Assembly: GCA_032622095.1 (NCBI GenBank) | Contig: CP136066.1 | Span: 170,448,664-170,512,663, forward strand | Direction of reading: 5' to 3' | DNA from: Siphonodentalium dalli | Taxonomy: Eukaryota; Mollusca; Scaphopoda; Gadilida; Siphonodentaliidae | Length of the DNA stretch: 64,000 bases | Shown: positions 38,942 to 61,495 of the stretch, piece after piece | Layout: each line of letters begins with the position of its first letter | Position numbering within the stretch: the stretch's first letter is position 1 | Notes under the pieces: generated by a model | Databases searched by the model: none | Told to the model about the DNA's origin: nothing | Seen by the model: the letters and a program-made list of their open reading frames with translations, nothing else | Made by a program: the position numbers and the translations under genes

Positions 38942-39083
38942 AATGAGGATGCCACCACGACAGAAGGTTTATATGGATTACATTCACTCCAGTTCATTAC
39001 TACGGCAACTGTCTGATTTGTGGAGGAGTGAAAATAATTTGTGCGATGCTGTAGTCACGGTTGATAAAGTGATCGTCGCCAAG
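38942..39083 (+). CDS. BTB gene exon with start codon
   Basis: The acceptor TTGATATTTCAG is followed directly by A and ATG (38943): 47 codons, MRMPPRQKVY... to VDKVIVAK, and a GTACTG donor in phase 0. The acceptor implies at least one 5'UTR exon upstream. The second in-frame ATG is codon 3. Confidence 0.82.
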
Positions 39084-42000
39084 GTACTGTACCTGAAACC
39101 TGTCTTTTGATTTAGAAAACTTGTAGACACGATCTACATGTACATGTACATTTGAATGGTCCTAGTGGTACCTATTTGGTCGAGTTGTTTAAAGACATAT
39201 TAAATTATCACTGAGAGCTTTCCGATGAATGGCAACAAGCCATATTTCCTACCAAATCCTGAAAAATTACCCATAATTCTGCTGTGGTTAAGGAGTTGAT
39301 TATTTAGGGCAGTACTGTATATGGTAGGAACAAGCATTAAAATTATGAAAATCAGTGTATATTAAATCACTAAATATAGATTGTATATTCCTATTTCAAA
39401 CAAATAGAGCAAAACTACTTTGAACAACATCGTTATAACATCAAGGGGCAAGCCTACTTGTGTATATTTTGTTCACAAACCAAGCGAGATTTGTTGAATT
39501 GGGAATTTTGGGGTAAGAAATTTGGAAAAACCTAACTACATTGTATATCCCATTGCTCAAAAAAATCCCTGTCTGCAGACTGCAATTGAATTGATTTAGA
39601 TTGACTTCGAGATCGGCTGCAGCTTCGGTCACAGCCGATATCGGAAATAATTCTGCGCATGTCCATATTTGATGAATCTCGAACGACTATGACTGCGGCT
39701 GCAACCGCAACAAATGTCACTTTCGGTATCCAATACAAACAACATGAATACCCTGTAATTTAATCATCGAATTTGAGGGTTCTGGTATCATAAACTATAT
39801 AGGGATATCTGTTGATCAGACCCAATGCTGTATAATTTATACTTTAAGAGCATTAATTATATCTAAATAAACATTATTAGTTTATATAGGCCTAGGCGTG
39901 TCGTTTATATGGCCTACGCATATATAAAATAAATATTGACATTTGGAATTAACTATAAACTCCAACTTTCCAAAAATAGTTTCATAAAATTAGATATATA
40001 TATATAAAGTGTTTTCCTAAAACAACCATCGAACCCAAAGATAAAAATCTACACGTATCAACAACAGATTAAGTTTTTCATTCATTCAATCATTGTCCGC
40101 CTTTTTTATTTATTCAGTGGCCGCCATTTTGGATTTTATCGCTAGTACAGGAACTCGCAACCAGGATTTGGTGGAAACGTGACGTCACATATCCTGGTCA
40201 TGGTAACTTCGAGGTCCCAAATCCGGCTGTGACTAGCTGCGACCGATCTCGAAGTCACTCTTAACCTTTTACAGAGATACATGTAATTGAACTGCCGTAA
40301 CATATACCAATTATCCACCAGTCTACTCCCTGGTTTCTGATGTTGTACCAAATTTATAATAATACAGTAATGCTCTAAATAATTGACTCCTTAACCAGAG
40401 CAGAATTATGGGTAATTCTGCCATGGTTAAGGAGTCGATTATTTAGGGCATTACTGTGGACCAACAACTGACAGTATCCTATCCAGTCATTCTTCAACTA
40501 ATGCTGTCCTACTGGTAGTGATGTTCCGATAATGAAAAAGCTTATCGGACCGATTTCCGATAACTGGAGGCACAATCGGCCGATTTCCGATTCCGATTCC
40601 GATGTTTATATATATTGTGCGTTTGTTCCTATAATGGACTTGTATACACCCAATGCACTCCATATCCCGCATAGTTTCAAAGCCAAATACATCAAAGAAA
40701 TATATACACACTGTCGTGACAGTATTTCTGCCGACGTTGGTTGTGTGCTTCCTTTGATGTATACCGGTAGTTGTTTTGACAAAGAGATCAAAGGTGCCGA
40801 CTCAGAGTAACGTTATGACCATGTGTGGAACACTTGCATGCGGAGTAAAAGTCTTGATTGAATACTTGTAAGTTGCAACAATGCATGGAATGGCGATGAT
40901 TATTAACTAAATTTTGATTGATGGATAATAATTGCTGTCATATTTGTCTGAGATTTCCCAAGTTTCCATTGGTCACACCTTTTATCTTTTAACAACTCGG
41001 AAGCTTTTATAGTTCCGCCTGCTCAATTTTTTTTTTGCAAGTTCAACGTGGAGCTAAGCGTATTTCATAGCATACGTTGTACAGACGAAAAAGCTAATTA
41101 TGCCCATACTAACGTTGATCGTTATTGAAGACAGTTCTGATAACAACTGTATTAATTCATTCATTGTGTGCTTCAAGTTATTTACATAGCATGTGACGTC
41201 ACATGACACGTGCTCTAGAGGAAGCCTCACTGTAATCAGGTCAGCTTTTTAATTAAAGCTTTCTTTGAATCTATTTCGTGTCAACGCGATTGAACCAATA
41301 ACTTCATCATACACGGGATGTCGGGCATGTGTATTGCCATTCTTATAATATATCATCATATCAGACTGCTTTGATGATGCCAATGGCTTCTTTTTAGGCT
41401 GTTACAACTGCGTTTTTACATTCAATACTACAGTTGTATTGCGTATGTTTATTAAAGCGTGCACATTGCGCTTAGATACTAGAACGTTTTTATTTATTTT
41501 GACAATCGGTAAAAGCCGATGTTCAACTGCGAGGTACGATTAATTTCCGATGGGCTATTATCGGCCGATTGGCCGATTCCGATTCCGATTATCGGAACAT
41601 CACTACCTACTGGTACACTACTAGCAGATGTTTTCTGAACTACTGTCTACAGGTACATGTTAGAGGTGCCACGATTATTGATTTTGATAATCGATAATCA
41701 GTCACTGAATCGGTCAATAATAATCGACTATAATCGATTAATCGTACCTAATATTAATAACATCAGTGGAAGTATACCGTAATATGGCCTATTGCCTGGA
41801 TGCTTGTTAACTCAATAACTGCAATGTCGCTGGTCGTTTGAGACATTGGCTGATGTAATTTTTACGTTAATAAAGTGCATCATAAACCACTGTTAATAAC
41901 TAATGAGCACAATGTATTGAATACCAGCACAGTTCTCGGCGATGTTATGGTTATAATATTTTTGAGTTCATTAGAACGAACGTAGCGATTAATTTCAGTT

Positions 42001-45000
42001 TTAGGAATTGCCACATATACAAACAATACAAAAGTAGGAATGAACGATGGACCACCGGTGGTTCCTAAAGAAAGGAATAAAATGTTATGGAAACTATAAG
42101 TTTCATCAAACTTCCAGAGCGTGGTTAACAATCACAAAAGTGTGCCCCCACCTGCAAATTGCACGACTCAGAACAAGCTAAGTATTTGATAACAGTCTGT
42201 TTCATTCAGCATTCACCACACGAGATGCGATAGCCTTTACTAGTAACTTCTAAGTATACATTTGTACTTATACAAACAAAGTACACTCGCAATGCAATTG
42301 CGGAGAACATCACTGATTAAAAGCCATATATATATTGTTCCCTGGTTTTAGAGAGAATGTCAATCAACTTCCCATTGGTCCAACCAGATCCAAGGGCGAG
42401 TTCATTCAGTTCATTGAACACGGTGACAGTCGGCACATTTCAAAGACATATTGCCACCTTTCAAGTATATTAAAATATACAACGATGTCGCAATGTGTTC
42501 AAATCTGCAGTGCCGCCAATTTGTAGAATATACAACGATCCGACGAGAAACCATGTCGCATCATCAAATGAATTGCCGACTGTTTGCAACATATATCAGA
42601 AGTACTCAGGGGTGATAGGAAGACAGTCAGCCATGACTATATCACCCCTAGCAATATACATGTATAGTCTATTAATATTATATTTATTTGTAATTGTACT
42701 TTCCATGTATGTGTATTGTAAATAAAATTATCCTATCCTATCCTATCCTCATGTTATTGGAAAATCTTTGGTACGCGATCAAAGGACGTTAACACCTCGT
42801 ATGTAGATTGAACTGTGTAAAATAAACACGGTATTCAATAATACATGGCATCTTCTGACGTCCGATATAAACAATGCAGATTAATCGACGATGGAAATGG
42901 TAATCGATTATCGGCTTTATCAACGGTTCATCGATTATACGATTAATCGTGGCACCCCTAGTACATGTATCAGCTAAAAATATTGCAATGATCGATCATT
43001 ATGCCTATCAAACTAAATGTGCCCATAAAGTAGTCCCATCAAGGTTTTTCTTTAGGCAAAAGAAAAAATAAATGTGTGGTTTGGGTTTCCCTACCGACCC
43101 TATTTTAAACACCCTACATGTACTCTAAAGTTTTTTTCATGGTGTTCAAGAAAATCTATTGAATTTTTCTCAAAAAATTTCATTAAAAAAAACAACACAT
43201 TTCAGCATCTCAGAATAGGTTGATTTCTTAATAAAAGTAGTTTTATGATAATCTTGCTGAGTAAAATATGCATATGAAAAGTAATAAGATCATGTCAAAA
43301 TAAAAAAAATAATTAAATAAAATAAAATTTCAAGCCTACATGTACCTACCTACCGGTATACCCATTAAATGGTATTTACTGTATCTTTCCAGGCACACAA
43401 GTTACTGCTATATGCTATAAGTCCAAAGCTGAAGTCGGATTCTCAAACGGAACAACAGGCACCAATTCTCGACGTTTGCTTGCCTAGTGGAATAAATCAT
43501 TCAGCCGTCCACTCATTTTTATCATACGTATACGACGGATATCTCATTCTCGTGGAGAACCAACTACCAGATCTCATAAAAATAGCAAAGCAGCTCAAAC
43601 TCCGATGCCTCTACAAATGTTGTCAGGACTTCATGAAGACATTCAATGTGAACATTTCCAATGAGGTTGATGTGTTCCAACAACAGGATGAATTCGATCA
43701 TGTGAGGAACTCAAACATTAATGTCGAGGTTCCACCATGTGATCATGAAGACGAACTTCATTTTCGGAAAAAGAAACCAAAACTAGTCAGTGCTAGTCAA
43801 TCGTCTCCTATTGTGGTTGACAGTGATGTTTACGAATCGCCAACTCCGACAAGTAGATTCACACCAAGAGTTTCTAGTGCGTCTAAATCAGAACATTCTC
43901 AACAACACAACTCTCGCATTCCTCATCATGACAACTCTCGTGTTCCTCATCAAGCATCTGGAGATGGACAAATTATCGTACAGAATAACCTCAGTAATGA
44001 GAGAATCGTGCTTTCCAGTAATAACTATCAAAGTCCAACTGTTGACAGTCAGAGTAACACGTTGGTATCCAGACAGAGGAATGATCACGATCGAATGGAT
44101 ACAAGTGATCGTGCACGAGATCGAATGGAAACCAGTGATCGCGCACAAGAGTCAACGCAGTAAGTATGGTAGAAATTTGTGTCCGGATAATAGCACATAC
44201 GGGCTAGCATCACCAAATTCACCCTCTGGGAACCTCATTCTGCTTAGGCCTCAATTGCTTGGGGATCAGATTCACAAATATTGTGATATTTTGTATGTTG
44301 TTTAAATCCTTTTCAGTTTCAATTTAGTGGCATGTTCAAATGTTCAAGTGTAATTGGGGTGCTTTGGCTATTCCATAATGATACTTCGTGTGAGAAAAGC
44401 CAATAAGGTAACTACTAGTAATAATATATAGGGGAGCAAGTATTCTGAAATGTGGGAGCAAATAATTGCCCTTGCTGTGAGAAAATATTTGAGTTCTCGC
44501 ACCATGCGTAAAGTGTCGATGGACAGACAGACGGACGAATGACAAGTGGTCAATCCAGACATCGACACTATGTTTACCATATTATGGTATGGGTAAACAT
44601 AAAAAAAGTTTACTTGTGCACCAAATGATCACTACTCAACAAGATTTTAAGGGAATAGTTGAAATAATCGGTAATACGGTATACTGCAATGTGATTTTAG
44701 GATTACCGCTGTATTTTTATGCTTAAATACCACCCAGCACTAAATGGAATGGACTACTTATTTTGTATCATTACCTTGTTAATTCATATCTTAGTTGTTG
44801 ATTGATAATAATTGCTATTTTATTCTCCAGACCTGAAAGTAGCCAGCAAATATCAAATACTGTGATTCCCGATATCCAGAATATTAAACAGGAGGTCGAC
44901 GAATCAGTTCAAGCATTTCAATTCTCTACATTAAAAACGGACCCTGACGCAGACCAGTCATATCAAGGAGATGAGAATTTTCCCTCTATGTGGTTCCCGT

Positions 45001-45131
45001 CTGCCTCTGCTAGTAACACAGGAGAGGACGGTGGAGGGATTTCATCACTTGACAATAGCAATGTTTCCATGTATACTGACAACCAAGGTGCGAGCTTCAC
45101 AGGTGAACAGCCAAGAGCAGGCCAATCAGAG
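38942..45131 (+). CDS. BTB-domain protein, common N-terminal part (three exons)
   Basis: Exons 38942-39083, 43393-44159 and 44831-45131 join in phase into 403 codons. A BTB/POZ domain starts near residue 14 and ends near 145 (LLRQLSDLWRSENNLCDAVV, VDKVIVAKAHKLLLYAISPK, FLSYVYDGYL, LKLRCLYKCC). It is followed by a low-complexity linker with a repeated DRM(D/E)TSDRA motif and an acidic stretch with sumoylation-like IKQE and LKTD sites. BTB domains dimerise and recruit cofactors; chromatin or transcription regulators of the BTB-Zn or BTB-psq type have this head. The region ends in phase 0 at a GTGAGT donor, after which three different phase-0 exons are available. Confidence 0.85.
39207..39318. 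repeat. Half M2 MITE, starting at palindrome centre
   Basis: ATCACTGAGAGCTTTCCGAT to GGGCAGTACTGTA. It lies in the BTB intron 1. Confidence 0.78.
40363..40458. mobile_element. Deleted M2 MITE, both ends only
   Basis: TACAGTAATGCTCTAAATAA and TTTAGGGCATTACTG retain about 45 bp of each terminus; the centre of the palindrome is lost. Confidence 0.75.
40516..41605. mobile_element. hAT-like non-autonomous element A, 1090 bp
   Basis: Termini TAGTGATGTTCCGATAATG and ATTATCGGAACATCACTA are inverted repeats with further subterminal CCGATTCCGATT repeats. A perfect 8-bp target duplication CCTACTGG lies at 40508-40515 and 41606-41613. No transposase frame. It sits in the BTB intron between exons 1 and 2. 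Confidence 0.9.
41661..42960. mobile_element. hAT-like non-autonomous element B, 1300 bp
   Basis: Termini TAGAGGTGCCACGATTATTG and ACGATTAATCGTGGCACCCC(TA) pair, with many TAATCGATTA words near both ends. A perfect 8-bp target duplication GTACATGT lies at 41653-41660 and 42961-42968. It starts 47 bp after the duplication of element A. Confidence 0.9.
42608..42749 (+). mobile_element. Short retroposon with (TATCC)n tail inside hAT-B
   Basis: GGGGTGATAGGAAGACAGTC through AATAAAATTATCCTATCC interrupts hAT-B. The related copy at 26470 reads straight through (AGTACTCATGTTG), showing the empty site, with CTCA duplicated. A pentanucleotide tail after AATAAA fits the 3' end of a truncated non-LTR element or SINE. 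Confidence 0.75.
43393..44159 (+). CDS. BTB gene exon 2 (rest of BTB, linker)
   Basis: The acceptor TATCTTTCCAG is followed by AHKLLLYAIS, the conserved AHK...L core of BTB domains. The exon then leaves the domain (LPDLIKIAKQLKLRCLYKCC) and enters a Ser/Asn/His-rich linker. The donor GTAAGT at 44160 gives phase 2. Confidence 0.88.
44203..44262. repeat. Half copy of MITE M3
   Basis: GGGCTAGCATCACCAAATTC through ACCTCATTCTGCTTAGGCCT: one arm of the M3 palindrome starting at its centre. It lies 45 bp after the donor of BTB exon 2. Confidence 0.75.
44831..45131 (+). CDS. BTB gene exon 3 (acidic linker, splice hub)
   Basis: The acceptor ATTCTCCAG at 44830 and phase 2 give PESSQQISNTVIPDIQNIKQ... 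to GQSE at a GTGAGT donor. The phase-0 exit is the hub from which each alternative last exon can be read. Confidence 0.82.
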
Positions 45132-45307
45132 GTGAGTTTGAATCTTTGTTTTCTTGAGAAAGGTCACTGTTCATCAAACATGTTTAGCATCACTTCGGCT
45201 GAAGAAGGTATAACTCTTTAACATAGAATCGCGAGTGGATTCTTGGCCTTTATATTCCCCTGAATTCAAGTCGGTAAAGGATGCCCTCAAAATACAGAAA
45301 TCAGTCT

Positions 45308-45935
45308 TGTTAAAACTAGACCATGTTTCATTTCAATCAACTTACGGTCTAGGGGCTCTCATGAAATAAATTGTTTCAAACTGGAGGAATCGCGCCAACG
45401 AAATCACTTGCACATCGAAGATTTCATGCGTTGCTTGACCAATCAATAGCTTCCTGCAAAACCAATAATTATTCACACTTTGTCACGTATTTAACAAATC
45501 CCGCCCAATGTTGCTAAAAGTAAGTATTACAAAAAGCAGAAGTGATGGAGAAGCGATGTTGTACGAAAACAACATGGCTGATTTTTCCGAAATCTAAATT
45601 CTCGACGTTGCAATTAAGAATGTATTGCATAAAATAGGCATGGATTCACTGAAGAAACCAAAATAAGAGAATATTCTACGAAGCTTATTTACCTACAGAA
45701 AAGACATTTGAGCTATTCTGTCTATTTGTTACGGCCATTGTTATTAACATATGGGCATTGAAATTGTCACACGTCGATCAAAAAACAATAAAGAGTGCCT
45801 TATTTCAAAATATGAATATTAATGAGCTGTCGCTGGGGATTCCCCGTTCATCTCTGAAATCAATTTAAGTACCAGAGTCTCTAGGCTGAGTGTTTACTGT
45901 AACAAATCCTCGGTCTAGTTTTAATGAGACTGTAT
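45308..45935. mobile_element. Possible short-TIR element
   Basis: CAGTCTTGTTAAAACTAGACC near 45310 is the inverted match of GGTCTAGTTTTAATGAGACTG near 45912. Terminal CAGT and ACTG suggest a mariner-like MITE, but the TA duplication is not clear. It lies just after the hub donor. Confidence 0.5.
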
Positions 45936-45947
45936 GGAAATGTACCA

Positions 45948-46085
45948 AAAATAAATATGAGAATACAATTTTTGTCATTACATAGCCATCAGACCTTCAG
46001 ATTATTAATCAGTATTCAGTACCATAATTTAATTTATAAACGTGAATATGCAATGACAAATATTGTATTCTCATGTTTATTGTGG
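45948..46085. repeat. Imperfect palindrome
   Basis: AATATGAGAATACAATTTTT is mirrored by AATATTGTATTCTCATGTTT, with inner GTCATTACAT/TGCAATGAC. Confidence 0.6.
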
Positions 46086-46714
46086 GCCATTTGTGGCACA
46101 TTTCTAAATTTTTTGGACACATCATATTCCGTTTAGGGGATGTAAAGGCCTGATAGCCATGTTTATTTATTAATGAAAAACATTGAAATAATACCACATT
46201 TGAATCAAAGAACTAAATTCTCGGAACCGATCATGCTAGGAAATAGAATGCAATGATTTCATGTTTTTGGTCAAATCTCAAAATTTCCTCTCCTACCTGC
46301 TCCTACCAAGCCAAACCATGGTTCATCCCGATGTGCCAAATTTAGGTTGATATACATGATACCAAAATGTGTGTGAGGATACACAGCTTTCAATTAAAAC
46401 TGGGTACATGACTCTAAAAGTGTCTAATGTTGCATTCCCTAATTTACCATAATTTAAATAACTAGATTGTATAACCTAGTATAACATATACAGTATAACC
46501 TGTCTTGAGAGACCACCGTCAACAGCGACCACTTGCAATTTACGACTCAATTTCCTGTTCACCGACTGGTTTATTCTATATACATGTATTACCTTCATTG
46601 GGGAAACCACTTGTCAAACGCGACACCTAATTTTCGGTTCAAAACACAAATTCCACAGGTCTGTGCTGAGAGACCACCACCATTTATTAAAGAAGAAAGA
46701 AGCAGAAACTTTTG

Positions 46715-47098
46715 TTAAAGGCACGGATCGCCTTTGCGGTGGGTATTGCTGTTAAAATTGTCACATCCGTTTAAACTGCCATAAACAGAAAGAATATTAA
46801 AATATGGACAGAGTTTGTTCTTATTCCAATCATAAATAGTGCGTAAATAGTATGTTATTGTCAAGTTCGTACCCTTTGTAAACAAAAGCCAAAAACGTTC
46901 CGGAACCCGGCTTTTGTTTTCATATTATAACACAGCATATGAACTTGACAATAACATACTATTTATGCGATATTTATGATTGGTGTAAGAACAAAAAATG
47001 TCTATATTTTAATTTAATATTCTTTCTGTTTATGACAGTTTTAATGGGTGTGACTATTTTAACAGCATACGCACCATGATGGCTATCCGTGCCTTTAA
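46715..47098. mobile_element. TTAA-flanked palindromic MITE, 384 bp
   Basis: It begins TTAAAGGCACGGATCG and ends TCCGTGCCTTTAA with TTAA at both ends. The arms match over most of their length, e.g. CAAGTTC/GAACTTG with AATAACATACTATTTATG, around a centre near 46905. It lies 0.6 kb before the HTH exon. Confidence 0.82.
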
Positions 47099-47711
47099 TC
47101 AAAGTAAAAATGCACCATAATTTCACCGGATATGTGCGAAAAACCGAAATTAAAATATCGGAATAAACTACAAAATGGACTCATCTTACAGTGTAAGCCC
47201 TAAAAGAAATGGAGACATTAAACCATTTATTAAAAATTTATGAAGCAGAAACTTTGGTTAAACTAAGTCAAAATGCCCCAGAATTATAATGGATACAACT
47301 GGATATGCACGAAACCAAAAGTACGAAAAGGGCTCGTCTTACGATTTTACGCGCCAAAGAAATGGACACATTGCATTCGCATGCACAGTAATTTGTGTTT
47401 TGAGACTTATTGTTATTTAACAGCTGTGTGATTATATTTTAATTCGCATCAGTCTGGAGGCCATTAACAATGGAAATAAAGTAAACTTGATTGCATATTT
47501 GTTTTGACAAACTACATGTTTCTCAGAACAATTAATTAATATATCGAGAGATGCTCAAACTGTGAAAAAGGGTTTAGTGGAAGCGGGTACTCAATTTATC
47601 TGTTGACATGGGTGGCCCAACTAATTAGCCATGTTGTCTTATAAATGCATTTGAAAGTTTTTTGGCTAGCAGTTTTTAAGTTCTTAAATCATGGATCGTT
47701 TTTCTTTATAG

Positions 47712-47900
47712 GCAGCACCACAGAAAAAACGTAAAATTCTCACTCTTCGGGAAAGAATCTCGGTGATTGATATGTCTGAGAAAGGTTTAAGTTCCAGAAA
47801 AATATCATGTGAACTTTCTGCTGGAAAAACGCAAATTCAGAATATAATTAAAAACAAAGATTCCATCCGAAAAGAATGGGAGATTGAACACAATTCGTGA
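47712..47900 (+). CDS. Alternative last exon A of the BTB gene: CENP-B/pipsqueak-type HTH
   Basis: The acceptor TTTCTTTATAG opens 62 codons in phase 0 and a TGA (47898-47900). AAPQKKRKILTLRERISVID through GLSSRKISCELSAGKTQIQN fits the N-terminal helix-turn-helix of CENP-B and pogo/Tigger transposases (three helices, K.LTL.ERI...KG.S.R.I...GK.QI..I). Joined to the head this makes a BTB-psq-like regulator of about 465 residues. AATAAA at 48061 may be its poly(A) signal. It could in principle be a separate relic, but the phase and acceptor match the hub. Confidence 0.75.
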   Translation, partial: AAPQKKRKILTLRERISVIDMSEKGLSSRKISCELSAGKTQIQNIIKNKDSIRKEWEIEHNS

Positions 47901-48154
47901 CAATTGTATATTTGTGCTTTTTGAATACTGATCCATGTTCCCATCAACCATCTTAAAAGACAGAATTTGACCTTTTTGAGTATGAGTGTTCATTGCTTCA
48001 AATGTGCTTGCTTCAGTGATCGTGAACAAATTCTCATTTCTTATCGGAATGGCAGTATACAAAATAAATATCTATTTTGTACATTATTCCATCACGTTTA
48101 CCATCTTGTCTATTTGAATTCATTCAAGAGCAGATATCATCATGCCTTGAAATA

Positions 48155-48615
48155 ATGTGTCTGACATTTGCAGAATGAGGTCCCCAGAAGGTGAGTTTAG
48201 TGATGTTATACTGCACGGTGTGCTAGCATCACCAAATTTACCCTCTGGGAACCTCATTCTGCTTTAATAGGCCTCAATTGCTATGGGAGACCTAGGATCC
48301 GATTGAAGTTCCCCAGTTGAAGTTGGTGATGTTCACCCATTAATAGCCTCGATTATGCATTTTATCTTCTGAAAAATAAGGGATATCTAGAAACTGAAGG
48401 AGAAGGGAAAAAGGAACCAACGACATTTGAGACTATAGATACTTCCCAGAAGATAAGGCCTAAGAGGAATGAGGTCTCCAGAAGGTGAATTTGGTGATGC
48501 TAGCCCACTGTACGGGGGTAGCATCACTGATTTCACCCTCTGGGGACCTCATTCTGCAAATATCATTCATACACGTACTAATTCAAGGCTTGGTCATCAG
48601 TCCTGCATATCCTTT
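48155..48615. mobile_element. MITE M3, full copy with spacer
   Basis: Left palindrome 48168-48265, ~200-bp spacer (GGGAGACCTAGGATCCGATT), right palindrome 48465-48557, then AATTCAAGGCTTG. It lies about 270 bp downstream of exon A. Confidence 0.8.
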
Positions 48616-48873
48616 CCCACTTTTGCTAAATATTATGGTCAGATTGACTTCTTTGGCATCACAAATGCTTATCACTATATCTGTAATTTGTACACTTAAC
48701 ATTGAGATAATTCCAGGTGTATGCAACGGTAACGACCTTTTATTATACCAGCCCTGTTATTTTGCGTCGGCTATCGGCTGAGCCGTGGCAAGAAAATTTT
48801 GTCGGCTAAAAAATAATTTCAAAACTTGCCAATGTTTTGTGCAAAATTGAAACAAATTGCTGCAGGAATTGTC

Positions 48874-49085
48874 TTACAGTAATGCCCAAAGTAATTGACC
48901 ACTTAACCACAGCAGAATTATGGGTAATTTTTCAGGATTTAGTCGGGGGGGAAATATGGCTTGTTGCCATTCATCGCCAAGAGCTTTCCGATGAATGGCA
49001 ACAAGCCATATTTCCGACTAAATCCTGAAAAATTACCCATAATTCGGCTGTGGTTAAGTGGTCAATTACTTTGGGCATTACTGTA
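48874..49085. mobile_element. Palindromic MITE M2, full length
   Basis: TACAGTAATGCCCAAAGTAA to TTGGGCATTACTGTA, folding at GCCAAGAGCTTTCCGATG. The left arm has a small GGGGG insertion. Confidence 0.85.
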
Positions 49086-49294
49086 TGAGTTGTACTGTGA
49101 ATGTATGCAGACAGCAACAATTCATTGTTGAATGCACATGAGCTTGGAACTTCAATGGAGACCCCCTCCCCCTCAAATTAATTTCTACTGAAACCTGTGG
49201 TATACCCTCTAGGGGTGAAGAGGGTATATCACAGGGGGTGGGCAGAAACCAAGGTCTTCCATGATAATGGACCATGATCCATTTGTAGACTGAA

Positions 49295-50999: not shown

Positions 51000-51479
51000 A
51001 TTCAGGTTTGGAAATAATTTGGTGTCAAAGCATGGTGTCAAAGAATATTTAATTATGGCAATAGATTTGCTGAATGAAAGTACATATGATCATATACATG
51101 TATAGTGTATATATATTATAGTTGGTATACAAGTACAGGTACTCAAAATTGTACTGGAATAAGCTTTTTGTTGCGTTCAATGAATTGTATTGGGTTTGGT
51201 ATCTCATTACAAGCATTGTATTTGCACTGTGGATTACTGTTTCTGTACAATTGTCTACCGTTTTGAACTGACTTGGCAACACTGGCCTAGTCAATTGTCT
51301 TTTGTTCAGATAAAACAACATTGACATTGGGTTGTTAAAACTTTCATACATACTAGTACATGTACAGGTGTGTATCCATAGGCCTTAGAAAACACAAATT
51401 CTTTGCATGCCACTTTTGAAGGTGCTGTATATGTTGTGGGTAGTCACGATTCACACATACATCTTTAGGCTTGTTCACA

Positions 51480-51935
51480 GTATCAAGTCTGCAAATAGCG
51501 TGTCTGTAATTTGCAGAATGAGGTCCCCTGAGGGTGAATTTAGTGATGCTATCCCACATGGCGGGCTAGCATCACCAAATTCAACCTCTGGGAACCTCAT
51601 TATGGTTAGGTCTCAAATGCTATGGGAGACCTAGGATCAGATTGAATTTCCCCAGTTGAAGTTGGTGATGTTCACGTATTAGTCACCTTGATTTTGCATT
51701 TTATATTGTGAAATTAGGGGATCTAGAAACTTCCCAGAAGGGAAAAAGTAACTAAAAACAATCTTAATTTAAGACTAAATACTTCCCAAAGATGTCAGAG
51801 GACTAAGCGGAATGAGGTCCCCAGAGGGTGAATTTGGTAATGCTAGCCCGCTGTGCGGGATACCATCACTAAATTCACCCTCTGAGTACCTCATTCTGTA
51901 AATGACAGACACGCTACGGTATTTGCAGGCTTGAG
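51480..51935. mobile_element. MITE M3, full copy with spacer
   Basis: Left palindrome about 51512-51605, spacer with GGGAGACCTAGGATCAGATT, right palindrome about 51808-51900, and the terminal GACAGACACGCTA. It lies about 0.8 kb before exon B. Confidence 0.8.
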
Positions 51936-52752
51936 TAGTATTAGTAACTATTACTGAATTGGTCAAGTTTTCGTGGTACCAATGATCAAGGTACCCAGAA
52001 TCTGTTAAATATTGATTAGTTCCTGATATTCTTGGTACCCAAATTACCGTATTTGAATCCAATGTACCATACCATTTTCAACAGGACCATTCAAATTTGC
52101 CCCATGTTGGTGCCACCTAACAGTCTGGGTTGTTCGTCAGAGTTCAGTGTATTAAATTGCCACAACTGCAGCATACCGGTAACCCTAAGTGCTCTCTATA
52201 AATTGTACATGTAGCAGTTCTCGGCTTAGAAATCTTAATTTTATGTCGTCCTCGTCATGAGATGTGAGGCAATGCTATAACTATTTCTCTACACTGTACA
52301 TGAGGCAAAATTAAAAAAAAATTGTGGTTCCCGTTTCTATACCTGCCCTTTTTGATACACCCTACCCTACAGTTTATTTTAATGGTTTTCCAGGGTTCTT
52401 TAAGAAATTTTTCTGAATTGTTTTATTTTAAAAAAACAAAAATGAATTTTCAATGGCTCAGAATGGGTTATTTGTCAAAGAAATTTATTTATTAGTTTTT
52501 CAACCCAAAATATTGTTAACAAAATCTTGCAGAAGAAATTAAAAAACAGTTTAATATACTCTATACACCTACATGTACATGTAGTAGGTATAAAAAAAAA
52601 CCAATTCTATATCCCCTCTAAATCAGCTGAAATTGTGTCCGTTTAAGTTGGTCGGGTCCGCTTAACCAAGTTATTAAAAAAGGCCTTACTGTAACATTGT
52701 GATAACGTCAGTTAATAGAGAGCACTTATTTAGGGTTATGCTGTATTTTCAG

Positions 52753-53541
52753 TCGAAAGTCTACACGCCTCTAGCCAAGATGAGGTCCGAACCTGCGGTT
52801 AGAAGTTTGCCATCAGAGCAGCCACACGGTCCACACGATAGAAGCGGCATGTGTAGAAATAATGTTCGGAATCTATTGCATCATGGGAACCAAGGGAACA
52901 ATTATCAAATCTACCCTCTGGATTCATCATATGCACCATCCAATGCTAATACGTTGCATCTACAGCACTCTGGTGACAATACACACAAACGTTTTCACAG
53001 AGATAATAGGTCTCATAGAGAGCGTTTCAGTGGCGATGATACACATGAACAATTTTACCAAGATAATTGTGACATACCTAATAGGGAGCGCTTGAGTGGT
53101 GATGATTCACATCATCAAGGTGATATACCTAATAGAGAGCGTTTCCATGGTGATGATACACATCTTGAGATTTACATAGATGAAGTGGCCCATGACGATG
53201 AATATTTTGGTGATAATTCCTCAAGCAGTATCATGTGTAGCGGTGTTTGTAAATTCAGTTCCGATCAGATGCTCGAACAGAAACCGCTGAGGGGAAAACC
53301 CTCCCCGGCTCAAAAATTCTTCCACACTCTGATTAGGGATGCAGCTAGGCAGACAAACATCTGGAAAAATGCTCCAATTCTCTCAGAAATATCGGATAAT
53401 GGGAGAGAAAACTTTTTGGAGATTGTGTTTCAGCGTGCACCTCAACTTGAACCTGAGAGATATCGGGTTTGGCAACGATTTGGTCACCAGTTAGCTAACA
53501 GACGCAAATATTTAAGGGACAAAACTTCTGGGAAAAGATGA
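52753..53541 (+). CDS. Alternative last exon B of the BTB gene: repeat-rich, unknown C-terminal domain
   Basis: The acceptor CTGTATTTTCAG opens 262 codons in phase 0 to a TGA. The middle has four degenerate copies of an RERFSGDDTH motif. The last ~85 residues (SPAQKFFHTLIRDAARQTNI... EPERYRVWQRFGHQLANRRK then YLRDK) are basic, probably helical, and conserved-looking. By analogy with the other two exons this would be the DNA-binding part, but I do not recognise the family. The composite protein would be about 665 residues. Confidence 0.68.
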   Translation, partial: SKVYTPLAKMRSEPAVRSLPSEQPHGPHDRSGMCRNNVRNLLHHGNQGNNYQIYPLDSSYAPSNANTLHLQHSGDNTHKRFHRDNRSHRERFSGDDTHEQFYQDNCDIPNRERLSGDDSHHQGDIPNRERFHGDDTHLEIYIDEVAHDDEYFGDNSSSSIMCSGVCKFSSDQMLEQKPLRGKPSPAQKFFHTLIRDAARQTNIWKNAPILSEISDNGRENFLEIVFQRAPQLEPERYRVWQRFGHQLANRRKYLRDKTSGKR

Positions 53542-54257
53542 AATGAGTCTGGATGACTTTTAAACAGACACAATGTACTGGTAGGCACATTTTGAATGTC
53601 TGAAACTAGTTAAAATTAGCATTGTACATTTACATCATCAGCGAAACCATATTTGAAATTATTTAACATCATATAATATTATAGTGTCTTTCTCCAGCCC
53701 TTAAAATTAGCTGTGGCAAAAGGCGATGTCAAAAAAGCCATAGATGCCACTATAGAATTTCATGCATATCAAAAGCAATGCCATAGAAGAAAAATTTCGA
53801 CACAAACTCTACCAACTTTATGATATTGAAAAAAGATTTATAGCAACTAAAACTTCCAGCAGTTCTTCAGTGGGTATTATACATTGTAACACGTTCCATC
53901 CCCCCTTTAATGCCATTTGTACACAAAATTGCATACCCCATCTACATGTACATGTACATTACCAGGAGTAAAGCTGCTGTTCATGGATGGTTTTGGCCAC
54001 TAAATGTATTTTGTTACTCAGGTTCGCTGAAGCTGGTATTCTTATACCCAGGTTGGTTTCATTTCACCCCGATTCAATTCGGCTGTCAACCCCACTCGCA
54101 GGGCCCTAATTCAAGCAGTGTCCATTATACTGTATGTTGCTTGGCATCTTCTATATGCCCAGAGATGCATGGAAAACATTGTTTTTGTTTTCTTTATGTA
54201 ATCCATTTCCTACCAATCAAGAGACTTGGTCTTCATGACCGAACAATCATACATGTA

Positions 54258-54692
54258 CCCCGCTGGACAAAACAAGTGTCCATTGGCACCGCGGTGTACT
54301 TGCCATTCGGCCGCGGTGTCAGAGTTTGTAACTACAGTTGAGCACAGTCTGGAGTAAACTACATACCCACATATATCAGTATCATTATGAATCTGAGTGT
54401 ATGTTTACATAGACTGAGTTGAGCACTGCAGCCAAAAGACAAGTACCCTGCGGCCGAACGGCAAGTACACTTCGGCCGAACGGCAAGTACACCGCGGCCG
54501 AACGGCATGTACACTGTGGTTAGATTTCTGGTTTGTATCGTCTTTTTTCGGCAACTACACCATGGCCGAACGGCAAGTACACCGCAGCCCAACTGTAGTT
54601 AGCCGGTGGAGCCACGATGTAGTTGCATTTCGGCCACTGTGGCATCGCTAACCACATTGCGGTTAAGTGGACACTTGTTTTGTCCAGCAGGG
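54258..54692. mobile_element. TA-flanked element with GGCCGAACGGCAAGTACAC units
   Basis: Left CCCCGCTGGACAAAACAAGT and the complement of the right CTTGTTTTGTCCAGCAGGG form ~25-bp inverted termini flanked by TA. Inside are about five units of CGGCCGAACGGCAAGTACAC (54450-54590) and an inverted one at 54285-54315. No coding capacity. Confidence 0.75.
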
Positions 54693-54699
54693 TACCTTG

Positions 54700-55630
54700 T
54701 ATGTGTTTTGAGAACAGGATTGCAATGTACACTACATATAGCTACCGGTAATTACCTTTATACATGTATGGATAGGATTCTTGGGTCTGGCTTCATGTCT
54801 CATAATTTCTCCTCTGAACTCGAAACTGGGAGGCGATTCTGTGTCATTATTAATGTTTCTGTGATCTGTACATGACATTATTCCCCCGCCCTGGATATGA
54901 TAACCGGATCACTAGTGAGGTACCCAAGTTATGATTTAGATGTTCAGTAAATGGTTAAAGACTCATGTTTTAAGTGCTATATAAAACTATCCATTATTAT
55001 GATAACTAGTAACCAATATTGTGCACCAAATATTTGTGTCTTAACATCGTTACTGTAATATACAGCCCTAAAAATTAGGAAAAATGTCCCACTGCAAATT
55101 TAATGCTGTGGCATGTTCGATTCCAAATGTTTCCATGGCATTGCTTATTGCCGTGTCCAATTTTGAGGACTACGTATATGCCTGTATATGCCAGTGTATC
55201 TTCCCTGGGTACATGTACATGTACCAGTATCTTCCATGGTTTCTACATGTTCATCTATATTAATCAAAACATAAGATATATTATCAAAATTATCTTTATC
55301 AGATACAACCAATCGACTACCAACCCAATTATTTTATTCATAAGCTTTCCAAAGTACATTCTTGTTGCAAGCAGTTGAAACCAGAGTTTTATTCATGAAA
55401 TTTCATCTAGTTTAATCTTAAATGACCGCTCTCTTGTGAGAAGTCAATGAATTATCTTCTCACGATGTGATAAAATCAGATACATGTACAGTGGGTACTC
55501 AAATTTCTGCTGTCCATAACATTTCGATGCATACTCTTTTGAACAGTTACATGTAGCTTTCCAAAAGTACCGATGTGACAAACAGTATGACTGAGTTACT
55601 CTGTTGAGGCTTTTATTCACCATAAAGCAT
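54700..55630. other. Intron/intergenic stretch, no defined feature
   Basis: It contains CAGCCCTAAAAATTAGGAAA near 55063, similar to 4527 and 53693, so a short interspersed repeat end is present. Otherwise nothing that I can support. Confidence 0.4.
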
Positions 55631-55634
55631 GTAC

Positions 55635-55722
55635 ATTAATGCTCGAAGTAATCAACTAAATTCTGAAAAGTTACCCATAATTCTGCTGTGGTTAAGAAGT
55701 CGATTACTTAGAAAATTACTGT
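55635..55722. repeat. Deleted M2 MITE
   Basis: About 20 bp of the left end (ATTAATGCTCGAAGTAATCA) is fused to the right arm from AAATTCTGAAAAGTTACCCA to AATTACTGTA. Confidence 0.7.
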
Positions 55723-56751
55723 ACCGGTACATTTATTGCACTCCTACATGTATTGCTGTCTTTCGGTTGATAACATTGCAAAAACCATGCAAAACAAATA
55801 CATGTATTTGATAGTGAAGATTACTGATTGCTGGTGTATAATAAACACAGAACCACACAGACTTGTGAAGGAGGTGAACTTTATCACACTCATTTGTTAT
55901 GCAGATGGCTCTCGTTTTAATTCCCACTTTCACATGCTTGTCAGGTTCTGTCTATTGATCACATGTGTTACAAAAATTGTCAGCAATATTTGTGCCTTAT
56001 AATAAATAAAAAACACTGTTTTATTCACAATTAATGATAATGACACTTTACAATGTGTCTTTGGAAACCCCATACTGGTGCAAGCATACTGCATTTATAT
56101 TATCGTATACATGTACCCATACCTGTACAGCAAAAGTTGTTTCTTCCAGGAATAATACAGATCTTGGCTGATATCAGGCATTTGTTTTTTGTTTGTACAT
56201 CTGCAAATACTTAGTACTAGAACATGTATGCTGGTTTATGCCGAAGATCTGTTCCATTTTTCTCCGACGGCAGAGTTTACACTCAGACTCTTTGGCCAAT
56301 TTTTTTTTCGATAGTTGTAATTGACATACATGTATAATCCTACATATCAACACAGTAGCTACAGTACATGTATATCAAAAGTGTGATATCTTATGGTCAC
56401 AATGATCTAGTTTTGATGTTAAAATACATGTATGTATAGATTAATTATGATGTGTAACTTTTGTGCAAGACTGGATATAGTGTTTCTGACATTTGCAGAA
56501 TGATTTCCCAGAGGGTGAGTTTAGTGACGCTATCCCGCACATCGGGCTGGCATCAGTTCACCAAATTAACTCTCTGGGAACTTCATTCTGCTGATGGCTT
56601 AACCCTTTACCCAACAAACCGGCCAAAACCGGCCAAAGAAAGCTTCAACAGCCTAAAATATCTTCGGTCTGTCTCAACAGAACCATACAAATATGGATAT
56701 CATTGGAACCGGCTCATTGACCACATTGTGATGGTTATAGTTATGCCCTGT

Positions 56752-56820
56752 GCCAATGCATTCTCTTATATATGCGAGTCGACCATAGGTCGCCTCGCAT
56801 ATATAAGAGAATGCATTGGC
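56752..56820. repeat. H hairpin
   Basis: Intact stem and centre, GAGTCGACCATAGGTCGCC. Confidence 0.8.
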
Positions 56821-56898
56821 CTAAAAAAATCTTTTTTTGACACTTTTTACCATTTTTTCTTACATTCTTTAACAATTTTATAATTTTTAATGTGTTAA

Positions 56899-56967
56899 GC
56901 CAATGCATTCTCTTATATATGCGAGGCGACCTATGGTCGACTCGCATATATAAGAGAACGCATTGGC
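56899..56967. repeat. H hairpin
   Basis: Intact, inverse orientation to the previous copy; one stem change (GAGAACGC). Confidence 0.8.
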
Positions 56968-57359
56968 ACAGGGCCCTTCTGTTGGGTAAAGGGTTAACTG
57001 CTATCCATGGAGACCTAGGATCAGATTGAAGTTCCCCAGTTAAAAGTTGGTGATATTCACCCATTAGTCACTTCTATTTATATTCTGCAAATCAGGGGAT
57101 ACAGAAACTGAACAGAAAGGGAAAAGTAACTAAAAACAATGTTAATTTGAGACTATAGACACTTCCCATAAGATGAGGTCTAAGCAGAATGAGGTCCCCA
57201 GAAGATGAATTTAGTGTGTTAGCCCGCTATGACTAACTAACTAGCATAACTAAATTCACCCTCTGGGAACCTCATTATGCAAATGACAGACACTTTAACT
57301 CAGGCCTACATGTCTGTTTAAACTCGGCTGTAAGAGAGTAATGGATCAGATCTCCAATG

Positions 57360-57576
57360 TGCAGTAATGCCCTAAATAATCGACTCCTTAACCACAGCAG
57401 AATTATGGGTAACTTTTCAGGATTTAGTTGGTAATATGGATTGTTGCCTTTCATCGGAAAGCTCTCACTGAGAGCTTTCCCATGAATGGCAACAAGCTAT
57501 ATTTCCGACTAAATCCTGAAAAGTTACCCATAATTCTGCTGTGGTCAAGGAGTTGATTATTTAGGGCATTACTGTA
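57360..57576. mobile_element. Palindromic MITE M2, full length
   Basis: CAGTAATGCCCTAAATAATC to GATTATTTAGGGCATTACTG, centre GAAAGCTCTCACTGAGAGC. Confidence 0.87.
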
Positions 57577-57612
57577 AACCAACATCCAGAACAACTAATA
57601 ACACAAGCTGGT

Positions 57613-57910
57613 TTAACCCTTTATATACTAAATGGATTCTCCCTGTCAGTTAATAAGTGTATACATCAGGAATGGTCTATTAATGATTTACAGGGATGTA
57701 CACAGGTAATATAAAGCAGGTACTATGAGCAGATCACAGATAAATGAAAGTGCAGAAGCAGTCCTACTTGTATTTATTGAGGAAAATGTTGAGATAACAA
57801 GTATAACAAATGGTTAGACAAAACAACCTGCTGGTCATTTGTTGAACTTATCTGAACAATTCATATGGGATAACTAATCATCAATGATGCTTTAGTATAG
57901 AGAGGGTTAA
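57613..57910. mobile_element. TTAA-flanked MITE with TTAACCCTTTATATACTAAA termini
   Basis: The right end TTTAGTATAGAGAGGGTTAA is the complement. The interior (GTGCAGAAG, GAGGAAAATGTTGAGATAA) resembles the repeat near 7257 and 8697. TTAACCCTTT is shared with M1 and the 7401 element. Confidence 0.7.
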
Positions 57911-58694
57911 GTCCAGGGAAACTCAGATTAGTGTTATGTGCTGTTTTTCAACATATTATAATCAGCTACATGTACTAGTATACCGGTACATGTATGGGTA
58001 ACTCACAAGGAATGTTATATTATCTTGATGCCTGATGTGCCAAGTTTGACATTCATCAATCCTGACATTAATCAATATATCAATCTTATTTGTCACTACG
58101 GGACTTAAAGCTGAAACACCACCAGGCCAAAAAATTAGTGAAAAATAAAGAATGACTATAAAAGTGGTAGGACTGCAATGATTCATTGTGAATTCAATGC
58201 ATTCTGTTTGACTTCCACCTTAAAAATCCTACACCATTAGTTTCGTTACTGTATCGTGATACTCATGTGTACATGTATGTAATTTGTATTTTAACAAGAA
58301 CTGACCTGTTGCTGAAATATGCATTGTTATTCAAGCTCATGTACATACATGTAGGTTATTATAATTCAGGGCATTTATTGGGTGATTTCAATATTAATGC
58401 AGCTGTGGGCATATAATTTAAGGGATACATTTAAATTTCTGTAATATCAGTATAATATAATACTGCAGAGACCACACAAACAATTTATTTATTGAATCTT
58501 CCACTCAGTCCTTAATACATTTATATGTTGCCATTTGTTTCTTGCCTTTCTGTGGTGGAACATATCGAGATACGTATTGTATCATCAGAATTGTATCATG
58601 ATACATGTACATATCATATCATGGAAAATCATATCGTTTCAGCCCTAGTAAGTGGATAGTTTGTTATCATGTCACAAACATTTTCGGTATACAA

Positions 58695-58798
58695 AGCTTT
58701 CCGATGAATGGCAACAAGCCATATTTCCGACTAAATCCTGAAACGTTACCCATAATTTTGCTGTGGTTATGGAGTCGATTAATTAGAGCATTAATGTA
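58695..58798. repeat. Half M2 MITE, starting at palindrome centre
   Basis: AAAGCTTTCCGATGAATGGC to GAGCATTAATGTA: only one arm. Confidence 0.75.
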
Positions 58799-58898
58799 CA
58801 TCATATTTTGTCATCTTGATCCAAATTGACTTGGTCTATTTTTGTGATACTTGGTCAAAATTAAAATTGGGTCCGGTCTGAATATTTATTACATTGTT

Positions 58899-58964
58899 AT
58901 GGACTTTTTACGTCATGGAAGAATAACTTTTTCGCAGATTAGAAAACTGGATAACAATGACGAG
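58899..58964 (+). CDS. Candidate short exon feeding the zinc-finger exon
   Basis: An ATG at 58899 opens 22 codons (MDFLRHGRITF...LDNNDE) ending exactly at a GTGAGT donor in phase 0. Within it, TTTTTCGCAG at 58937 could be an acceptor giving a 27-nt phase-0 cassette. Either an alternative first exon (own promoter for the zinc-finger part) or a small cassette of the BTB transcript would join exon C in frame. Short, so weak. Confidence 0.3.
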
Positions 58965-59215
58965 GTGAGTAATTATTGTGTTTATTAATATGTGTACATG
59001 TAAATAAATGAAAATAAAAAGCTGCAAGATGTGGCATGTTTTTTAAGTAGACATAATTTGGAGGTTCAAATAGCCATGTCCATTTACATATAATTCAAGT
59101 TTATTCTTTATGGCCACAGCTGTGTTGGTAAGAGATTGGTTGCATAAAGAAATAGCTATCTTAAAGATACACATATATATATTATATATATGTACATGTA
59201 TATACACATGTACAG

Positions 59216-59326
59216 TACTGAGAGCTTTCCGATGAATGGCAACAAGCCATATTTCCGACTAAATCCTGAAAATTACCCATATTTCTGCTGTGGTTAAGAA
59301 GTCGATTACTTAGAGCATTACTGTAT
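59216..59326. repeat. Half M2 MITE, starting at palindrome centre
   Basis: ACTGAGAGCTTTCCGATGAA to GAGCATTACTGTA: only the right arm. Confidence 0.78.
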
Positions 59327-59574
59327 ATAATCAGCCTTGAGAATTTATAAGAGAAAAATGCCAAGTTACCACATGTATTTAAGCCTAGGGGGCAACTTTA
59401 TAAAAGAAAATGCAATTTATAATCAATAAGCAATAATAAGCTTACTGGCCATGGCTTACAACTCAGAAATGCTATTTCATGGCAGACAACATGCATTAAA
59501 GTATAATATATTCATATTACTGTCATCTTAGTGTCTTGGGGTGGGAAACAGCATTGTTTCCAGACCACCATCCC

Positions 59575-59705
59575 ATAGGGAGCCTCGCATATATAAGAGA
59601 ATGCATTGGCCTAACAATATTTACCTTGACCTTGTAAGCCAGTGCTTTCTCTTGCGATGCTCCCTATGGGAGCCTCGGATATATAAGAAAATGCCCTTGC
59701 ACAGG
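59575..59705. repeat. Two degenerate H arms
   Basis: GCCTCGCATATATAAGAGAA at 59582 is one arm. A mutated full copy follows at 59636-59702 (CTCCCTATGGGAGCC centre). The CCTAACAATATT linker between them matches the M1 interior, so this is an eroded M1. Confidence 0.6.
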
Positions 59706-59873
59706 GTCTTTAATGTTGCACCACAAAGCTACCATCATGAAAGGAATATATACATGTACGGTATGTATATAATCAGTGTTAGCGAAATCTGTATTTTTTA
59801 CAGCCTGAGTGAACAAAGACTATTGAACTGCTACACACTCAACGTTATGAAACCTTCCGATATCCTTCACATT

Positions 59874-60118
59874 CAAGCCTTGAAATAGGGTGTCTGTCAT
59901 TTGCAGAATGAGGTCCCCAGAGGGTGAATTTAGTGATGCTACCACGCATAGCGGGCTAGCATCACCAAATTCACCCTCTGGGAACCTCATTCTGCTAAGG
60001 TGTAAGCAGAATGAGGTCCCCAGAGGGTGATGCTAGCCCACTATGCGGGGTAGCATCACTAAATTCACCCTCTGGGGACCTCATTCTGCAAATGACAGAC
60101 ACCCTATTTCAAGGCTTG
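59874..60118. mobile_element. MITE M3, spacerless double palindrome with perfect 8-bp duplication
   Basis: CAAGCCTTGAAATAGGGTGT to CCCTATTTCAAGGCTTG, flanked by TTCACATT on both sides (59866-59873, 60119-60126). Confidence 0.92.
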
Positions 60119-60324
60119 TTCACATTACCAATTGATGGGACAAATCACTGTCACAGTTTTCTTTTTTTTTGCATAACAAGGTATTCCAGCAGGCAAAATT
60201 ACTCCCTGTTCTTAGTTATAATGTTTGTATAAACTTTTATATTTTTGCACATTTACCCACTGTGATTGCCTTGTGTCCCTTTAATAGTAAGCTCCCATTA
60301 GTATATCACATCATCTTGCCAAGC

Positions 60325-60700
60325 CTGGAAAAAGTGTGTCTGACATTTGCAGAATGAGGTTTAAATTTAATTTACCCTTGGGGACCCCATTCTTCTCGGG
60401 CCTCAACTTCTTGGATGTATCGATCTTTCATCTCAAATTAACATTGTTTTTAGTTACTTTTTCCCCTTCTGTTCAGTTTCTATATCACCTAATTTGTAGA
60501 AGATAAAATGCATAATAAAGTTGACTACATGTAATTCCTGGAACTTCAATCTGATCACAAGTATCCCATAGCAGTTGAGGCATAAGCAGAATGAGGTTCC
60601 CAGAGGGTGAGTTTGGTGATGATAGCCCACCATGTAAGATATGGTTACTAAACTCACCCTCTCAGGACCTCATTCTGCAACGTCAGATGCACTATATTCT
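60325..60700. mobile_element. MITE M3, diverged copy just before exon C
   Basis: The left palindrome is collapsed (60340-60400). The spacer is inverted relative to other copies (CCCCTTCTGTTCAGTTTCTA), and the right palindrome is 60588-60680. It ends about 70 bp before the zinc-finger exon acceptor. Confidence 0.72.
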
Positions 60701-60766
60701 GGCTTGTATCAGGCCTGGTTTATTCCATGTTTATGTCTTTTTTTTATCATACTTTTCATTTTACAG

Positions 60767-61495
60767 AGAGTGTCCAAGACGCCTGCAATCGATTCTACGT
60801 CTGTGGTAAACAAAGATGTAGAACAATTGGAGCAGAGCGTCGTTCACAAGTCAGTGCCGGATACGTCTGCAGTGGCTTTAAAAGAAAACTCAAAGAAAAC
60901 CTGGCTTTGTTCATTGTGTGCCACAACTTTTTCATCAAAATTCAACATGAATCGACACGAAAAAGAGAGGCACAACCTTAACCCGGCCAAGTACAAGTGT
61001 TCTGATTGCCACATCGAATGCACCGACTTAGCTGCGTTAAATTCTCATAAGAAAAAACATAACGAAAAGAACCTGTGTCCATCGTGTGGTAAATGCTTTA
61101 AGAGAAGGAGTGAATTAACACGGCATTTAAAACAGCATGACCCTAGTTCTTTGATTACATGTCCATATGAGGGTTGCGGTAAAACTTTCCATGTTAAAGA
61201 AAGCTATGATGATCACCTCAATACCCACACCAAGATGAAACCATTCTCATGTTCTAATTGTGGCAAATGCTATGGTTCGCGTAGAGTTCTGCATAACCAC
61301 GAACATATCTGTAATGGAGAACATGGAGGCAAGATTCTTTGTGTGTTATGTGGTAAAGGCTTCGCCAATTCATCTGGAGTTTATCACCATAAGGTAGCTG
61401 TGCATGATGGGAAACTCTACAAGTGCGGCTGTAGAATGACTTTTAGATATCCGTCGTCACTTATTAAGCACAAGAAACTCAAGGGTCATAAATGA
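60767..61495 (+). CDS. Alternative last exon C of the BTB gene: seven zinc fingers
   Basis: The acceptor TTCATTTTACAG opens 242 codons in phase 0 (RVSKTPAIDSTSVVNKDVEQ...) to a TGA. Fingers start at WLCSLC, YKCSDC, NLCPSC, ITCPYEGC, FSCSNC, ILCVLC and YKCGC. The first four and the sixth are regular C2H2; the fifth ends H-x3-C and the last is short (C-x-C). Together with the BTB head this would be a classical BTB-ZF transcription factor of about 645 residues. If transcribed separately it would be a stand-alone zinc-finger protein; the 58899 exon keeps that option open. Confidence 0.82.
   Translation, partial: RVSKTPAIDSTSVVNKDVEQLEQSVVHKSVPDTSAVALKENSKKTWLCSLCATTFSSKFNMNRHEKERHNLNPAKYKCSDCHIECTDLAALNSHKKKHNEKNLCPSCGKCFKRRSELTRHLKQHDPSSLITCPYEGCGKTFHVKESYDDHLNTHTKMKPFSCSNCGKCYGSRRVLHNHEHICNGEHGGKILCVLCGKGFANSSGVYHHKVAVHDGKLYKCGCRMTFRYPSSLIKHKKLKGHK

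Follow-up and report, generated by a model that had tools for sequence, protein, structure and literature searches.

A BTB locus in Siphonodentalium dalli with at least eleven predicted alternative zinc-finger terminal exons, and its paralogues

Results

The common BTB head

The window analysed here is a stretch of 64,000 nucleotides (C6:170448664-170512663), and positions beyond its right end are given in extended coordinates that continue its numbering (extended coordinate + 170448663 = C6 position). Its + strand carries a BTB head of three exons: exon 1 (38943..39083) holds the start codon and the first part of the BTB domain, exon 2 (43393..44159) the remaining BTB and a linker and ends in phase 2, and exon 3 (44831..45131) is linker with a phase-0 end at GAG|GTGAGT. 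The original prediction of a BTB head ending in phase 0 at 45131 was borne out by GT-AG boundaries at all introns, a total of 403 codons over the three exons and a Pfam BTB match (E 4.8e-11). The exon 3 donor matches 8 of 9 positions of the donor consensus; two of the three head donors match only 6 of 9. An acceptor precedes exon 1, so a 5'UTR exon probably lies further upstream.

Comparison of the head with proteins of solved structure (phmmer against the PDB) placed ZBTB17/BCL6, ZBTB9, gigaxonin and BACH1 on top, and none of the 50 matches listed named a TTK-group protein. By this indirect test, which compares PDB matches and not a TTK profile itself, the head appears to resemble ordinary ZBTB/BACH/KLHL-type domains and not the TTK type known from arthropod genes such as lola and mod(mdg4).

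An array of zinc-finger tails

Downstream of the head, the original prediction listed three tails opening behind acceptors at 47711, 52752 and 60766. Phase-0 frames do open at these places, but the coordinates are those of the last G of each AG, and the exons begin one base later. The list itself was far too short, as there are at least eleven finger tails, and one of the three tails named is debris (see below). The multi-finger tail (60767..61495, + strand) is a good finger tail, although only six of the seven zinc fingers ascribed to it were recovered as Pfam zf-C2H2 stretches, and the putative seventh, seen by eye, is atypical with C-x-C spacing. A search of the genome with its DNA returned itself as the sole match. 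BTB and zf-C2H2 domains stand in one predicted protein in the manner of ZBTB proteins, joined by prediction only.

A suggested search for more alternative exons to the right of 64000 was productive, yielding ten short + strand exons less than 50 kb right of the window (extended coordinates 66435-109669), each with a C2H2 finger pair. These finger-pair tails, named Z1 to Z10, begin at 66435, 74594, 79385, 87610 and 88669 (Z1-Z5) and at 93882, 95639, 96212, 103505 and 109160 (Z6-Z10), and the last stop of the array is at 109669. They encode only 54-169 amino acids; Z2 is the exception in having three fingers. All ten pairs are C2H2-C2H2 and align with 12 invariant columns, the zinc ligands being invariant, and F-Y-R-x-D is present in the second finger of most of them. 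The flank at 114-144 kb held no finger pair, only one single-finger-like pattern match that was taken as chance, and 109669 is therefore the apparent end of the array; frames of at least 150 amino acids in this flank are all on the - strand and are F-box/leucine-rich and receptor-like by eye. Several of the acceptor tracts 20-25 bases before the finger tails (66400-109160) are alike, for example CACTGTTT...TTTCAG or TTGCAG, which could reflect either shared descent or a common regulatory tract.

The strand of the array was evaluated with a finger-pair pattern in a region that holds all eleven finger tails, the multi-finger stretch included; the pattern gave 11 matches on the + strand, none on the - strand and none in 60 dinucleotide shuffles. 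The splice phase was evaluated with an acceptor matrix built from 14 tails of other loci, taking the best AG at most 250 bases before the first cysteine. The best acceptor was in phase 0 in 10 of the 11 finger tails, the exception being Z3, and for the six-finger tail the best-scoring site was a different phase-0 AG that places the exon start at 60713. In the reverse test, a matrix trained on this locus gave phase 0 in 12 of 14 paralogue tails, the two misses being a tail at C4:170.6 Mb and another at C4:170.5 Mb. Taken together, 22 of 25 tails were in phase 0 where one-third would be expected by chance (binomial P = 2e-8), in a phase test that is not fully blind because the training sites were hand-picked in phase 0.

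These results bear on whether the finger pairs could be separate small genes, with their own promoters and unseen 5' exons, standing in tandem behind an ordinary BTB gene. In-frame ATG codons occur upstream of the acceptor in several finger frames, and Z5 has one between its assigned acceptor and first finger, as would suit such genes; no such ATG occurs in the other 10 of the 11 tails here, and an ATG precedes the first finger in 5 of the 14 paralogue tails. Yet the phase that fits best in 22 of the 25 tails is that of the head's last exon, five other BTB heads are likewise followed by finger pairs on their own strand, and the finger-pair tails are very short, leaving separate genes an improbable reading.

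Another arrangement would have the finger exons spliced in series as cassettes into one poly-finger BTB protein, in keeping with the many fingers often present in C2H2 proteins. The stop, however, follows the last finger by 0-93 residues in each tail frame, and donor-like sites matching at least 7 of 9 positions are absent between the last finger and the stop in 11 of 11 tails. The finger tails thus look terminal and a serial protein very improbable, although a weak donor inside a tail would escape this test, given the low scores of two head donors. Poly(A) signals after the tail stops were no closer than those after random positions (median 478 versus 495).

Selection was measured on the neighbouring tails Z4 and Z5, whose DNA likeness spans 222 bases, starting some 60 bases ahead of the acceptor and continuing into the exon. 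Over 57 codons Ka was 0.151 and Ks 0.668 (Fisher P = 2e-4), demonstrating purifying selection on this pair of tails. The array may still be partly dead, with few tails in use and the others decaying duplicates, a reading that overlaps with alternative terminal exons and was judged apart from it. The divergence of the tails and their unequal acceptor scores (3.6 for Z10 and 17.1 for Z6, with another AG as the best site of Z3) would fit decay, but all eleven have an open frame and an assigned phase-0 acceptor, no zinc ligand varies across the ten aligned pairs and Ka lies below Ks for Z4/Z5, so that we consider a partly dead array unlikely.

A tail with a basic domain

The second of the tails predicted originally (52753..53541, + strand) is probably an alternative terminal exon, with a conserved basic C-terminal domain that is probably helical. 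Its frame is open in phase 0, and Pfam found nothing in it. What makes the tail plausible is the recurrence of its domain near other BTB heads; its acceptor, on the other hand, is weaker than had been stated, being pyrimidine-poor and not among the sites that pass a cut of 13 pyrimidines in 20. An in-frame ATG lies 27 bases into the exon, so the basic tail could have its own start. No + strand frame within 69 kb to the right of the head exceeds its 287 amino acids (stop to stop), and the longest frame in 60 dinucleotide shuffles of those 69 kb reached at most 183 amino acids.

The last 104 residues of the basic tail match further places in the genome. Four of the matches, at three loci, are found near BTB head matches on C7, and at C7:118.35 Mb the basic-domain frame follows a BTB exon by less than 2 kb. 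At C7:60300774-60360810 a BTB head is followed by two basic-domain frames, and the acceptor candidates near the frame starts share one phase, which is not phase 0; the locus may be a small multi-tail array built on another module.

Searches with the domain, represented by eight members, against Pfam up to E 10 gave a best E of 0.027, for one member only and judged below the cut-off of the family matched. Against the PDB, the best match of a single sequence (E 3e-4) covered 31 residues of an engineered helical-repeat protein and was read as composition, and the best match by profile had an E of only 2.6. A divergent BEN domain was considered as its identity and was unsupported in the profile PDB and Pfam searches. 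A single-sequence AlphaFold model was helical but poor (mean pLDDT 61).

The same basic domain is contained in a frame of 553-561 amino acids within a multi-copy element of more than 3.3 kb. Three copies read (C3:271423908, C1:6356208 and C6:1800104) are 98.5-99.8% identical over 3.3 kb, seven further matches to the basic domain have equal score, and the frame of the element had no Pfam match above cut-off.

Transposon debris within an intron

The remaining tail of the original prediction, a CENP-B/psq HTH exon (47712-47900) behind 47711, has an open phase-0 frame and a Pfam CENP-B_N match (E 3.2e-9), but it sits in a dispersed transposase repeat of about 550 bp (47434..47983, + strand) and was rejected as an exon. 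The 62-residue CENP-B frame gave 66 matches in the genome including its own, many with stops, and the DNA of 47434-47983 gave 51 matches at E <=0.001, the window's own included; these come from the 40 candidates that were scored among 223, some copies contributing two matches each. The copies are mostly 72-84% alike in DNA, and several cover nearly all 550 bases. The repeat DNA reaches 278 bases upstream of the supposed exon start and 83 bases downstream of the stop of the frame. In a sister copy on C1 the CENP-B-like frame is open from its ATG, with ordinary codons at the site of the supposed acceptor; in the window copy the AG of this acceptor belongs to a stop codon, which interrupts the fossil transposase after six codons.

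With a CENP-B N-terminal HTH and many dispersed copies, 47434-47983 has the features of a pogo/Tigger-like element, and by its sequence we regard it as a broken transposon copy within an intron, outside the gene structure. In the window copy, the rest of the transposase frame is absent and no end-to-end inverted repeat was found. That the fragment was exonised and is a genuine recent alternative exon would find some encouragement in its phase-0 frame, open after an AG, and in a 2023 survey that reports BTB combined with CENP-B in most CENPB factors of Octopus (PMC10027918). The extension of the repeat past both ends of the exon and the origin of its AG in the stop codon of a dead pogo-like transposase make this highly doubtful.

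Other repeats were seen by eye in the window. Overlapping frames of 867 and 789 amino acids together with a 317-amino-acid frame (17208-22986, - strand) resemble a LINE-type retrotransposon that encodes an endonuclease and a reverse transcriptase, and a short palindromic, MITE-like repeat (GAATGAGGTCCCCAGAGGGTGAATT... and its complement) occurs in several introns (38580-38650, 48457-48550, 60594-60675, 61696-61880 and elsewhere).

Recurrence at paralogous loci

To place the locus in the genome, its head and finger pairs were searched against the 2.23-Gb assembly of nine long contigs. The head query gave 56 matches, which by eye fell into 31 exon-2-type matches, 24 exon-1-type matches (each figure counting the window's own copy) and the window's exon 3; the 23 other exon-1-type matches end at residues 48-65. 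The finger-pair query gave 149 matches, 31 of them with an open frame of less than 200 amino acids. Proximity was then counted between these 31 short-frame matches and the 31 exon-2-type heads (the window's own included), both sets selected by eye and the remaining head and finger matches having been dropped beforehand. For 26 of the 31 short-frame matches the nearest head is on the same strand, no more than 250 kb upstream; five have no head within 250 kb, and in none of the 31 was the nearest head within this distance downstream or on the opposite strand. The fraction of the genome that lies as near to a head is at most 0.7%. One of the 26 (C4:170,835,735) stands 237 kb from its head. Five BTB heads besides that of the window precede finger-pair matches, and since the search scored 150 of 16755 finger candidates, the number of arrays is a lower bound.

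Three of these loci were read in part, with C6:209.0, C4:236 and C4:170.84 Mb left outside the reading. At C4:170.6 Mb (4.2 kb of head and 20 kb of array read) ten finger tails, read in phase 0, stand within 20 kb; C6:78.8 Mb (exons 1 and 2 and 12 kb of array read) has three finger tails, and C4:170.5 Mb, on the - strand (10 kb read), has one, likewise read in phase 0. A candidate phase-2 donor of exon 2 is present at all three loci; it is the single best donor only at C6:78.8 Mb, as a phase-0 donor ties with it at C4:170.6 Mb and a phase-1 donor outscores it at C4:170.5 Mb. Exon 3 of the latter locus, assigned by eye, can end in phase 0 with a donor matching 6 of 9 positions.

In a tree of 24 tails, the tails clustered by locus (4 label changes against a shuffled mean of 9.9, with none of 200 shuffles as low), which suggests, in a weak tree with 1 of 21 inner branches well supported, that the arrays grow locally.

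Among the other head copies, one at C4:236451650-236452126 has exons 1 and 2 contiguous without an intron (51% identity over residues 6-164) and is perhaps a retrocopy or has lost its intron; 163 kb downstream of it there is a finger pair. Elsewhere on the same contig, at 274.2-275.5 Mb, matches to the myosin head, counted by eye, indicate about eleven copies of a muscle-type myosin heavy chain in tandem. Compared with solved structures, three muscle-myosin exons had eight scallop or squid sequences as their first matches (2ec6, 3i5f, 1dfk and others), before human, water bug, tarantula and fly ones, among the best 60 of 97 matches; this order suits a mollusc, in a set where annelids and brachiopods are not known to be represented. 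A genome search for the molluscan haemocyanin domain PF14830 gave no match, and neither did its control, so that it carries no weight against a molluscan origin, which is likely.

Discussion

We conclude with good confidence that the locus is one gene of about 71 kb (C6:170,487,606 to 170,558,332) with a three-exon BTB head and a choice of at least eleven, and probably twelve, last exons. The original prediction of a head with interchangeable 3' exons of one phase, in the style of lola, is strongly supported by the ten further tails and the paralogous loci. The phase-0 end of the head would be joined to one of these last exons, each with its own stop: ten with finger pairs (one of them with three fingers), a single tail with six or seven, and probably also a basic, helical tail. 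The primary transcript presumably runs from the head through the array, and splicing would connect the donor at 45131 to a single acceptor; the message would then terminate with the stop of the chosen tail and a poly(A) site behind it. Trans-splicing between separate pre-mRNAs, by analogy with lola, is a possible alternative to splicing in cis. The choice of last exon would keep the BTB dimerisation part and swap the DNA-binding part, so that the products may pair through BTB while each tail may direct them to a different DNA target; should products of different loci also pair, the combinations would multiply.

Several known systems share parts of this layout. The mod(mdg4) gene likewise combines one BTB head with a large set of variable C-terminal exons, but its tails carry mostly FLYWCH fingers and its BTB is of TTK type, whereas C2H2 pairs are found here. 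Broad-Complex, fruitless and tramtrack join a BTB head to alternative C2H2 finger pairs, differing in their few tails and arthropod TTK-type heads. Vertebrate ZBTB genes (ZBTB17, BCL6 and BACH1) provide the nearest BTB domains of solved structure, and to our knowledge have no arrays of alternative finger exons.

The layout is that of lola, in which any one of at least 20 C-terminal exons, most of them encoding zinc fingers, is attached to a shared N-terminal BTB region (PMC1947980). Here, too, many terminal exons of a single phase lie downstream of a BTB head and on its strand, 11-12 tails that are mostly finger pairs. By contrast, the lola BTB is listed as TTK-type (PMC11426971) and the head here is closest to ordinary ZBTB domains, and the description of lola includes some C2HC fingers (PMC1947980), unlike the ten C2H2-C2H2 pairs of this array. 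Given the shared layout and a head that appears not to be of TTK type, the locus may work like lola, and we claim no identity with it. Lineage-expanded molluscan BTB genes are known from Crassostrea oysters, where they are clustered and two clusters are expressed in the male gonad (PMC12111275); what that report describes for them is gene duplication, not arrays of alternative tails. According to a 2024 survey, the TTK type is absent outside arthropods except for a few plant sequences, each non-TTK BTB-C2H2 protein of Drosophila has a single isoform and many TTK-type proteins of Drosophila vary their DNA-binding part (PMC11426971).

Among the papers listed by full-text word searches of the open-access literature, with subscription papers mostly outside their scope, no earlier description of such an array outside arthropods was seen. 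A deep conserved design, which had been raised as one origin of the arrangement, is unsupported for the head, whose nearest solved structures are of the ordinary kind described above, with none of the TTK group among those listed. The clustering of tails by locus favours independent assembly, to the extent that the weak tree allows. The design of lola with a different head, probably in another phylum and in a family of loci (three with several tails, each partly read, and a fourth suggested by search matches), is probably a variant of a known plan. We lean towards the view that exon swapping of the lola type evolved separately outside arthropods, starting from an ordinary dimerising BTB domain, and was then multiplied into a family of loci, giving some two dozen or more BTB-finger factors. 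As the basic tail domain is common to a multi-copy element that spread recently, mobile DNA may exchange tails with BTB genes.

If ordinary BTB heads carry multi-tail loci in a mollusc, the design would not be tied to the TTK hexamer, and exon swapping of this kind would have arisen more than once or be older than thought. Such genomes would then contain more transcription factors than their gene counts suggest, and these loci would provide a second system for asking how a cell selects one last exon among a dozen.
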